Assembly: GCA_021815365.1 (NCBI GenBank)
Contig: JAKAGZ010000012.1
Span: 1-57,802, forward strand
Origin: Bacteroidota bacterium
Lineage (GTDB): Bacteria; Bacteroidota; Ignavibacteria; Ignavibacteriales; Ignavibacteriaceae
Length of the DNA stretch: 57,802 bases
Reading direction: 5' to 3'
Shown here: positions 18,254-40,960 of the stretch, piece by piece
Position numbering within the stretch: the first letter of the stretch is position 1
How the letters are laid out: the number at the start of each line of letters is the position of its first letter
Position numbers and translations under genes: made by a program
Notes under the pieces: generated by a model
The model's database searches: none
Seen by the model: only the letters and a program-made list of their open reading frames with translations
Told to the model about the DNA's origin: nothing

Positions 18254-18333
18254 CGGGGTGTGGCTCAGCCCGGCCTGCCTGCCGGTCAGGCAGGTTAGAG
18301 CGCCCCGACAGGTCGGGGAGCCTGGAGGTTTGA
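18254..18333 (+). pseudogene. Broken tRNA-Pro copy interrupted by palindromes and a GIY-YIG gene
   Basis: The 5' acceptor strand and D-arm (CGGGGTGTGGCTCAGCCCGG) match the intact tRNA-Pro downstream base for base. A 21-bp palindrome is inserted cleanly in the D-loop (18274-18294), the anticodon arm is replaced by CCCCGAC-AG-GTCGGGG (18303-18318), and the T-arm stops at its loop (GGAGGTTTGAAT), where the GIY-YIG start codon begins. It has no normal anticodon and no 3' acceptor strand, so it cannot be a tRNA. Its GGAGG (18324-18328) lies 5 bases before the ATG and can serve as Shine-Dalgarno. Confidence 0.75.
18274..18294. repeat. 21-bp GC-rich palindromic repeat, copy 2
   Basis: On the minus strand it reads CCTGCCTG-AC-CGGCAG-G-CAGG, a near-perfect palindrome. 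It interrupts the D-loop of the broken tRNA-Pro exactly between CCCGG and TTAGAG, both of which are contiguous in the intact tRNA, so the empty site is known. A GG at both borders could be a 2-bp target duplication. Confidence 0.7.
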
Positions 18334-18594
18334 ATGTTGTATTTTACATATATTATAGAATCTTCTAAATCAGGTAAATGGTATTATGGACATACCGACA
18401 ATACGGAAAGAAGATTGTGGGAACATAATTCTGGACAAAATATATCAACAAGAAATAAAGGTCCGTGGAAAATGATTTTCCTGTGGTCTTTCGAAACTGA
18501 GCTTGAGGCAATCAGGTTTGAATTGAAATTAAAAAAATTGAAAAATAAAGAATACATTAAAAAGAAATATCCAGAGTTCTTTTTGAAAAATTAA
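18334..18594 (+). CDS. Small GIY-YIG nuclease starting inside a tRNA-Pro copy
   Basis: Single-domain GIY-YIG endonuclease of 86 residues (UvrC-N-terminal/UPF0213-like). The motif region is FTYIIES and KWYYGHT (residues 4-22), with the conserved Arg in ERRLWEHNSG and the candidate catalytic Glu in ETELEAIRFELKLKKL. The ATG lies in the T-loop of a broken tRNA-Pro, and the T-arm GGAGG acts as ribosome site. An intact tRNA-Pro starts 3 bases after the stop. Small proteins of this kind are frequent in Bacteroidota-related genomes and often sit at tRNA ends, so it may be a homing or tRNA-targeting nuclease; its true substrate is unknown. Confidence 0.85.
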   Translation: MLYFTYIIESSKSGKWYYGHTDNTERRLWEHNSGQNISTRNKGPWKMIFLWSFETELEAIRFELKLKKLKNKEYIKKKYPEFFLKN

Positions 18595-18596
18595 TT

Positions 18597-18671
18597 CGGG
18601 GTGTGGCTCAGCCCGGTTAGAGCGCCTGGTTCGGGACCAGGAGGCCGGAGGTTCGAATCCTCTCACCCCGA
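18597..18671 (+). tRNA. tRNA-Pro (anticodon CGG)
   Basis: Complete cloverleaf: acceptor CGGGGTG pairs with CACCCCG, D-arm GCTC/GAGC, anticodon stem CCTGG/CCAGG with loop TTCGGGA (anticodon CGG) and T-arm with GGTTCGAATCC, discriminator A. CA follows only in part, so CCA is probably added after transcription. It restores the tRNA that the GIY-YIG gene interrupts. Confidence 0.95.
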
Positions 18672-18672
18672 C

Positions 18673-18988
18673 TTTGATAATAAATAGTTTGTTGACGCCG
18701 GGCAGATAAATAATGATAGGGTAGAGCGCCCCGACTCTGTCGGGGAGGCCGGAGGTTCGAATCCTCTCACCCCGACTTTTGATAATAAAAATAGTTTGTT
18801 GACGCCGAGCAGATAAATAATGATAGGGTAGAGCGCCCCGACTCTGTCGGGGAGGCCGGAGGTTCGAATCCTCTCACCCCGACTTTTGATAATAAATAGT
18901 TTGTTGACGCCGAGCAGATAAATAATGATAGGGTAGAGCGCCCCGACTCTATCGGGGAGGTCGTAGGTTCGAATCCTATCACCCCGAC
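18673..18988 (+). repeat. Three tandem ~105-bp repeats, each ending in a tRNA-Pro 3' half
   Basis: Units are 18673-18776, 18777-18883 and 18884-18988 (104, 107 and 105 bases). Each has a spacer of about 45 bases (TTGATAATAA...GACGCCG...GATAGGG), then a tRNA-like tail: TAGAGCG, an anticodon arm replaced by CCCCGAC-TCT-GTCGGGG, an intact T-arm and CACCCCGAC. None has the 5' acceptor strand. The third unit has diverged (stem mismatch, changed T-stem with compensation). They look like repeated duplication or integration scars at the tRNA 3' end. Confidence 0.85.
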
Positions 18989-19011: not shown

Positions 19012-19509
19012 GTGGCTCAAAATCATTCTTTCGACATCGTTTCTGAAATTGACTTCCAGGAAGTAGACAATGCCGTTAACCAGGCGATAAAAGAAATCCA
19101 CCAGAGATATGATCTGAAAGATTCACACACCGAGATCGAGCTGAACAAAAAAGACAAGTTCCTGAATATCAATACAAAAGATAATTACTCCTTAAAGGCA
19201 AGTATAGATATTCTGCAATCAAAATTCATAAAGCGAGGGATCTCGATAAAAGCTCTGAAATCAGAAGAACCTGAAACAGCTTCGGGAGGAAGGCTAAAAC
19301 AAAAAATCAATCTTCAAAGCGGGATATCAAAAGAGAACGCAAAAAAAATTACTTCGCTCATCAAAGATTCAAAGCTGAAAGTGAATGCACAGATCCAGGA
19401 TGAAAAAATCCGCGTGCAGGCACCGAAGATAGATGACCTGCAGGCTGTTATTAAAATGGTCCGCGAAGCAGACTTGGATTTCCCCACTCAGTTCATAAAT
19501 ATGAAATAA
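19012..19509 (+). CDS. yajQ: YajQ/UPF0234 family protein (c-di-GMP-binding type)
   Basis: Cytosolic protein of 165 residues matching the full YajQ family, with the N-terminal MAQNHSFDIVSEIDFQEVDN, the RYDLKDS motif and the C-terminal segment RVQAPKIDDLQAVI. Homologs bind cyclic di-GMP or nucleic acids; the role here is not shown. The start is GTG, 7 bases after GCGAGG. It directly follows the tRNA-Pro repeats and might be read from the same promoter. Confidence 0.93.
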   Translation: MAQNHSFDIVSEIDFQEVDNAVNQAIKEIHQRYDLKDSHTEIELNKKDKFLNINTKDNYSLKASIDILQSKFIKRGISIKALKSEEPETASGGRLKQKINLQSGISKENAKKITSLIKDSKLKVNAQIQDEKIRVQAPKIDDLQAVIKMVREADLDFPTQFINMK

Positions 19510-40930: not shown

Positions 40931-40960
40931 GAGATGACCCCGACAAGTCGGGGTCATCTC
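40931..40960. repeat. 30-bp perfect palindrome containing CCCCGAC/GTCGGGG
   Basis: GAGATGACCCCGAC-AA-GTCGGGGTCATCTC, a 14-bp perfect stem with a 2-base centre, 10 bases after the giant gene stop. The core CCCCGACaaGTCGGGG is the same palindrome found in the tRNA-Pro locus. No T tract follows; a separate clear terminator lies further on. Confidence 0.7.

Follow-up and report, generated by a model that had tools for sequence, protein, structure and literature searches.

A small GIY-YIG nuclease gene beside a broken tRNA-Pro copy points to a probable family of homing-type elements in bacterial tRNA genes

A gene for a small GIY-YIG nuclease is found between a broken and an intact copy of tRNA-Pro in a 57,802-nt stretch of DNA from a Bacteroidota bacterium of the family Ignavibacteriaceae (contig JAKAGZ010000012.1, assembly GCA_021815365.1; the whole stretch is called the window and its genome G000). 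From comparison with related sequences we consider it probable, at roughly 60%, that the locus is one copy of a family of isotype-specific GIY-YIG elements of the homing type, which enter tRNA genes and leave one intact tRNA behind. The recurrence of such genes at many tRNA genes, together with their isotype fidelity, suggests a family of tRNA-specific selfish elements. A first-pass annotation of the window had already seen here a small nuclease element with a tRNA gene as its target, which rebuilds that gene and leaves insertion or duplication scars, and this proposal is now supported by recurrence, isotype clustering, allele states and purifying selection.

The full arrangement was confirmed at positions 18254-18988 and runs entirely on the + strand, with a broken tRNA-Pro, the GIY-YIG ORF, an intact tRNA-Pro(CGG) and three tRNA tails, followed by yajQ. 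The broken 5' copy of tRNA-Pro(CGG) (18254-18333) extends from nt 1 through part of the T-loop. Its nt 1-20 are native (18254-18273) and are followed by a 21-nt palindrome, CCTGCCTGCCGGTCAGGCAGG, inserted in the D-loop (18274-18294), by TTAGAGCG (18295-18302), by a foreign 16-nt hairpin, CCCCGACAGGTCGGGG, that replaces the 17-nt anticodon arm (18303-18318) and has similar swaps as counterparts in relatives, and by a partial T-arm (18319-18333). The first-pass annotation had recognized this partial tRNA-Pro, to which the palindrome and the foreign hairpin are now added, and it had rightly placed the start of the nuclease gene within the T-loop, where the ATG of the 86-aa ORF lies (18334-18594; PF01541, E=5.7e-16). 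It had also regarded the T-arm GGAGG as the ribosome site of the gene. The motif is indeed present at 18324-18328, but the same position reads GTGG in four relatives with the same arrangement (G025, G021, G011 and G018), and use as a ribosome site is therefore not a conserved feature.

The stop codon is separated by 2 nt, and not by 3 bases as first counted, from the intact tRNA-Pro(CGG) (18597-18672; ARAGORN; Rfam, 67.7 bits). Behind it the tail units follow in tandem, 107 and 105 nt apart, each with a 57-nt tail in which a 17-nt hairpin replaces the anticodon arm. The first unit starts with an AT-rich spacer (18673-18719) that recurs ahead of tails 2 and 3; tail 1 (18720-18776) runs from the D-loop of tRNA-Pro to its 3' end, with CCCCGACTCTGTCGGGG (18729-18745) in place of the anticodon arm, tail 2 (18827-18883; hairpin 18836-18852) is built in the same way, and tail 3 (18932-18988; hairpin 18941-18957) adjoins yajQ. 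The three repeats of about 105 bp reported earlier are thus present, but they are not limited to a T-arm and an acceptor, since they reach back to the D-loop. The yajQ gene (19012-19509, + strand; NF003819) is the right-hand neighbour, lies outside the element and was used to mark the site in relatives.

Some other interpretations of the locus were examined and left. The spacer of the tail units gave no significant blastn match among the loci collected outside the window's own (best E=0.017), and the idea that it is a deleted GIY-YIG ORF, which came from an AGQINN-like reading, was dropped on this result. An ORF on the minus strand (18767-18982), whose lanthipeptide match was weak (24.9 bits with a cut-off of 25), was rejected as a gene, being read-through of the repeat array. 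The locus does not fit a tRNA integrative element of the integrase type, which would have an integrase gene and an att repeat at the 3' end of the tRNA: in the window the GIY-YIG ORF stands alone between the broken and the intact tRNA copies, and array units measure approximately 0.3-0.45 kb. As to a group I intron, the tRNA-Pro is intact and uninterrupted, and Rfam at gathering score gave two tRNAs only in the window.

Judged by its sequence and its predicted structure, the window protein belongs to the GIY-YIG nuclease superfamily, with catalytic residues and fold kept. Residues Y6, Y17, G19, R27, H31 and E63 are all there, and Y6, Y17, R27 and E63 are invariant in 22 of 22 sequences of profile A1 (the window protein included); this Y, Y, R and E we take to be the catalytic residues of the superfamily. 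The AF2 model of the 86 residues has a pLDDT of 94, Foldseek returned the UPF0213 structure 1zg2 as the best match with the Slx1 nuclease domain next, and profile comparison gave E=5.9e-18 to 1zg2 (profile positions 2-73) and 5.1e-9 to SLX1. With its single small domain, in a family where about 80-100 aa is the rule, the protein fits by sequence among the UPF0213 or small GIY-YIG proteins. Slx1 acts together with Slx4 as a structure-specific nuclease. In spite of the likeness in fold and sequence, the entry titles of the UPF0213 proteins (PDB 1zg2 and 1ywl) and of the Slx1 domain carry no link to tRNA genes. Two further searches bear on the homing reading in opposite directions: Pfam found no second, DNA-binding domain in the window protein, which counts against it, while weak matches to homing-endonuclease families in PHROGs (6.6e-4 for the window protein) count for it.

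Genes of this type are frequent in related bacteria. When 59 genomes (G000 and 58 from its family and order) were searched, with listed matches having E values up to 3.3e-15, the matches listed gave at least 171 small GIY-YIG genes, in 130 arrays from 47 genomes. Nine of the 130 arrays had less than 200 bp of flank and were dropped; among the 121 remaining, again for the matches listed, 65 have an intact tRNA within 200 bp, and in 65 of 65 cases it is on the same strand. In the protein tree of the matches listed, clades N (51 rows) and T (105 rows) are split with an SH-aLRT support of 99%. Counting only arrays with a row in this tree, a tRNA lies within 200 bp in 62 of 71 arrays of clade T as opposed to 0 of 47 arrays of clade N (among the matches listed), and clade N, coming from the same genomes, serves as an internal control. 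Beyond the ORF, 50 of the 62 clade-T arrays among the matches listed contain a broken copy of their own tRNA, compared with 2 of 62 when a tRNA of another isotype was the query. The expectation that GIY-YIG genes would also sit at other tRNAs was borne out, as they were found at 12 amino-acid classes of tRNA and one tmRNA. Outside the family and order the association continues: profile A1 matched at E up to 0.001 in 131 of 198 genomes of the phylum, a number that can include other small GIY-YIG genes, and a tRNA is present in 27 of the best 30 loci, including 17 of the 18 outside the window's order.

The clade-T arrays that lack a nearby tRNA include the tmRNA case (L084 in genome G038, locus positions 1236-1920) and a small sub-clade (L021, L119 and L149). 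At L084 the GIY-YIG gene abuts the 3' end of the tmRNA, and behind it comes a broken tmRNA tail, the T-loop of which is interrupted by an insert after GGTTC. The sub-clade (L021 at 1487-1760, L119 at 1610-1930, and L149) seems to be bounded by inverted repeats, TTAGCCCGTGAGAT..ATCTCACGGGCTTAA and CCCCGTCAAAT..ATTTGACGGGG, and the L119 element appears to split a recombinase-like gene, as read by eye from the flank. At L185 (genome G192, 1741-1800) a GIY-YIG gene precedes a broken tRNA tail with a swapped arm, and the locus holds no intact tRNA. Phages and plasmids were considered as carriers and abandoned: the one relative tried gave no tblastn match there, the phage collection included, and viral contigs yielded two weak matches among those listed.

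G000 itself has 41 tRNA matches and 10 PF01541 matches. Six of the latter are small ORFs at five tRNAs (Pro-CGG, Ser-GCT twice, Lys-TTT and two Met), and in each of the six the ORF is accompanied by an intact tRNA and by a broken duplicate of it. The other four are L003, which is small and not at a tRNA, a decayed stretch with three stops near one Met element (G000:C50:1288-1425), and two long ORFs. By eye, broken copies without an ORF were recognized at seven further tRNAs (Ala-GGC, Pro-TGG, Arg-TCT, Val-TAC, Ile-GAT, Leu-TAA and Gly-TCC), and these count against the homing reading. The arrays at Ser-GCT, Leu-CAA and Ala-GGC in G000 hold or touch N gaps and are less sure.

Whether the arrangement is fixed among relatives was checked at the tRNA-Pro-yajQ site, which is syntenic in 14 genomes, and it is clear that it is not. 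The site is empty in six genomes (G004, G006, G007, G022, G044 and G052), with 9-66 nt from the tRNA to yajQ and no GIY-YIG gene in the loci, occupied in six (G000, G003, G011, G018, G021 and G025) and marked by an ORF-less scar in one (G019); G051, with a 289-nt spacer devoid of an ORF, was left outside the three classes. Some of the occupied copies are probably decaying, as the ORF of G018 has an in-frame stop and the protein of G011 reads YIV instead of YIG. At the G018 site (L029), two tandem ORF-less tails lie 3' of the intact tRNA-Pro, resembling those of the window but with another spacer.

The last tail of the window differs from the tRNA next to it. Its T-arm, GTAGG/CCTAT, agrees with the intact tRNA-Pro of G025 (0 mismatches in 30 nt) and is 3 nt off the intact tRNA-Pro of G000. 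On this sequence match, tail 3 is probably a remnant of the native tRNA, the expected residue of an event in which the front of the native gene gave way to an incoming element. G019 shows the same kind of tail difference by eye. However, foreign tails could not be upheld as a general feature: among 26 terminal tails, an exact match to the tRNA of another genome was seen in the window only, and 17 of the 26 show no more than one mismatch to their own intact tRNA, so that local duplication could explain most of them.

The lineages of clade T stay mostly with a single tRNA isotype in different genera and, in the case of Asn, also in different phyla. Among the matches listed, a tree of 64 arrays at a tRNA (one row each, 12 amino-acid classes) shows 15 changes of isotype, compared with a mean of 45.0 and a minimum of 39 in 200 shuffles and a least possible number of 11. 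Host genomes change 57 times on the same tree, compared with 55.5 after shuffling (minimum 51), and do not cluster. Ser is the commonest class and is spread over several lineages. The fidelity could partly reflect vertical descent at orthologous tRNAs. Horizontal spread may account for the clustering by isotype rather than by genome and for the presence of the Asn lineage in two phyla, as read from the element trees.

For the Asn lineage, a query of four of its proteins (A2) against GTDB contigs gave 36 loci from Ignavibacteria, other Bacteroidota, Patescibacteria and two unnamed bacteria. ARAGORN called a tRNA in 25 of the 34 loci examined of these 36, of which 22 are tRNA-Asn (3 of them the query's own loci). 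In Patescibacteria the ORF ends between -1 and 21 nt ahead of the intact tRNA-Asn where ARAGORN calls one, and upstream there is a broken 5' copy, in which TCCGCC..GGCGGA takes the place of the D-loop in 10 of 12 such loci read. The Asn tree was given 28 of the 36 loci, with 2 dropped for stops. A single clade of 19 rows (support 96; 6 of the 19 labelled Asn by eye) unites the 17 Patescibacteria rows with those of the two unnamed bacteria; its sisters are two Bacteroidia rows at tRNA-Met (89) and then the Bacteroidota Asn rows (75, not firm). At three of the Patescibacteria loci (L213, L222 and L223, near position 1770) the anticodon loop of the tRNA-Asn seems, by eye, to carry an insert resembling a group I intron.

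Tandem copies that are identical or nearly so occur in single-contig genomes, with five at Asp in G001 (period 315), five at Leu in G018 (period 450) and three at Pro in G025. An assembly artefact was rejected as the source of the arrays, which are present in the single-contig genomes G001, G018, G025 and G056. The arrays take two forms, with the partial copy either 5' of the ORF and the intact tRNA downstream, as in the window, or 3' of the ORF and the intact tRNA upstream, which is commoner; the form switches 7 times on the tree as opposed to a shuffled mean of 12.0 (minimum 8), and this switching counts against the homing reading. The first-pass annotation had suggested that a tRNA-shaped mRNA leader could let the nuclease read its own target. 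Such a leader is not general, because 49 of the 62 clade-T arrays lie downstream of the intact tRNA and the GGAGG of the leader is not conserved. The breakpoints scatter, with 3'-type copies starting anywhere from nt 2 to nt 79 and 5'-type copies ending between the anticodon region and the 3' end, so that no single cut site shows, which again counts against homing; endpoints near the T-loop were seen, by eye, only for the ORF-less 5' copies of G000.

We propose the following course of events. The nuclease would cut a matching, unoccupied tRNA gene, and recombinational repair from an occupied copy would bring in the ORF together with a piece of the tRNA, leaving one complete tRNA. Tandem arrays may arise from later breaks in the intact copy that are repaired by unequal recombination, or from repeated insertions, and loss of the ORF would leave scars such as the three tails of the window. 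The arm swap in the broken copy, along with interruption of the D- or T-loop, probably removes the target of the nuclease or prevents recombination events by which the element would be lost. Against the homing reading stands the intact copy, whose native sequence is retained, so that the avoidance of self-cutting is unaccounted for.

Two known systems appear to be the closest precedents, phage SegB and the mORF hybrids of fungal mitochondria, and by analogy the present family may work like both (PMC13096335, PMC3630166). SegB of the T-even phage T6 is a free-standing GIY-YIG homing endonuclease; it cleaves within tRNA genes, and the tandem amplification of the tRNA-segB segment by homologous recombination depends on it (PMC13096335). 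It thereby shares with the present family a free-standing GIY-YIG nuclease beside tRNA genes and tandem amplification. The enriched cut motif of SegB, RAWTSGAAC (PMC13096335), is in our reading the reverse complement of the T-loop sequence GTTCSAWTY. Together with the palindromes inserted after GGTTC this motif had led us to expect a single cut site in the T-loop, which was dropped in view of the scattered endpoints. In contrast to SegB, for which no isotype preference is reported (PMC13096335), the present genes lie on bacterial chromosomes, code for proteins of about 80-100 aa, mostly keep to one isotype per lineage and adjoin a broken copy of their own tRNA in which the anticodon arm is swapped.

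The mORF gene hybrids, described for atp6 in Allomyces and for atp6, atp9, cox2 and nad3 in Glomus, consist of an endonuclease ORF (GIY-YIG in atp9) that has entered an essential gene and brought a substitute 3' end, while the original one persists as a remnant (PMC3630166). An endonuclease ORF with a duplicated part of the host gene is likewise what the 50 clade-T arrays with a broken tRNA copy contain. The present family differs from the mORF system as described there (PMC3630166) in that it targets a bacterial tRNA or tmRNA gene, has the duplicate on the 5' or the 3' side, forms arrays and carries hairpins in place of the arms of the remnant. A hybrid of the mORF type, with a foreign insert and a native remnant, is clear in the window only; G019 looks similar by eye, and most terminal tails (17 of 26) match their own copy.

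The same observations may be read as local amplification driven by the nuclease but not involving homing, where the protein nicks or cuts the neighbouring tRNA gene and recombination produces partial tandem duplications in a long-term, vertically inherited resident. The terminal tails that match their own intact tRNA, the tandem arrays of up to five copies, the ORF-less partial duplications at seven tRNAs of G000 and the precedent of T6 SegB (PMC13096335) are all in line with this. However, the empty sites among relatives, the Asn lineage common to Bacteroidota and Patescibacteria, the hybrid last tail of the window and a tree on which genomes do not cluster all indicate gains and losses between hosts, and we regard amplification in place as a possible but unlikely account of the family.

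The anticodon-arm swap is an odd pattern, of which, as of the family itself, no description was found among the titles and abstracts listed in searches of an open-access library. To find swaps, both 8-nt flanks of the arm were required with at most one mismatch each, so that swaps with other boundaries are missed, and of 52 rows two (L197 and L100 self) were set aside as not real. In 41 of the remaining 50 broken copies the anticodon arm is replaced by another hairpin, in 5 (all Ser) the stem is kept and the loop holds a palindrome, and 4 are native; 18 of the 41 swaps are at Pro(CGG), and rows that share an array or a lineage do not count as independent. Among the 41 swapped hairpins, 22 are 16-17 nt long and 35 are 15-20 nt long; the stem reaches 6 bp or more in 39. 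By type they are TCCCGA/CCCCGA (26), TGGCGC (6), CTCCGA-like (4), ATCCCG (3) and other (2), the TGGCGC hairpins belonging to Pro elements of G008, G043 and G056 (one 3'-type clade) and of G126 (not on the tree). The palindrome CCCGAC-N-GTCGGG occurs four times in the window, three times within 18254-18988, compared with 0 in 100 shuffles. Over the whole of G000 the CCCGAC palindrome is found in 24 places, as opposed to 1 for a reversed control; 12 of the 24 are in or at broken tRNA copies and 12 are not at a tRNA, and of seven of the latter that were looked at, three are nested in a longer hairpin (by eye).

It could be that the small GIY-YIG nucleases recognize DNA hairpins as such (tRNA arms, terminators and palindromes), exchange them at stem boundaries and spread through the hairpins of tRNA genes, each lineage at one isotype; the palindromes dispersed in Bacteroidota and Patescibacteria would then be non-autonomous products of the exchange. 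We find this rather doubtful; if true, it would mean a class of mobile elements defined by hairpin replacement and not by the chemistry of transposases, integrases or introns. The opposite view, that the palindromes are independent mobile repeats with the GIY-YIG genes as passengers, and that the broken copies are neutral duplicates collecting hairpins because tRNA arms are hairpins, agrees with the palindromes away from tRNAs and their nesting but seems improbable, since both 8-nt flanks are kept around the hairpin in 41 of 50 broken copies (by a search that required the flanks), the TGGCGC hairpin looks as if it travels with the element in the Pro clade of G008, G043 and G056 and in G126, and the link of GIY-YIG genes to tRNAs is left unexplained.

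The protein seems to be selected for function even inside arrays, as differences are mainly synonymous. For 13 differing pairs of adjacent array copies the pooled pS was 0.132 and the pooled pN 0.015, a ratio of 0.12 in which codons with several changes were counted crudely; a few pairs within arrays that have 2-4 differences show a pN not clearly below pS. Best-matching pairs between genomes mostly have synonymous differences too. This purifying selection, tandem copies included, would fit a gene of benefit to the host, for instance a nuclease kept beside the tRNA on which it acts, with a housekeeping role or one in defence, such as cutting a phage or foreign tRNA of the same isotype, and so would the isotype fidelity and the common strand of gene and tRNA in 65 of 65 arrays, which suggests co-transcription. 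Such a role is nevertheless hardly to be expected from a gene that is patchily present at tRNA-Pro-yajQ, leaves ORF-less scars and is found decayed, as in the G000 stretch with three stops; PADLOC gave no match for the window protein and weak partial matches in one of two relatives tried.

If the homing reading is right, the tRNA genes of Bacteroidota, and at least the tRNA-Asn genes of Patescibacteria, host a large family of single-gene parasites that mostly use one isotype each. The specificity of homing endonucleases, their self-immunity and the rebuilding of the target gene would then be testable in natural elements of approximately 300-450 bp, and the tRNA fragments and palindromes that accompany tRNA genes in these bacteria would have a candidate explanation.

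Clade N genes are often flanked by palindromes of the type ATTCCCGC..GCGGGAAT, for instance L091 and L092 (G051) and L093 (G017), and on one side L003 (G000:C14). Palindromes on both sides were found for 9 of 48, compared with 1% of 428 random positions in the same loci. REP sequences are small palindromes linked to a single-domain enzyme, the Y1 or RAYT transposase, and the flanked part of clade N suggests, by analogy, a GIY-YIG/palindrome system like RAYT/REP. The differences are that the enzyme here is a GIY-YIG nuclease and that the hairpins of the present family sit inside broken tRNA arms. The fourth palindrome of the window, CCCGACAAGTCGGG, lies at 40939-40952, away from both window tRNAs.
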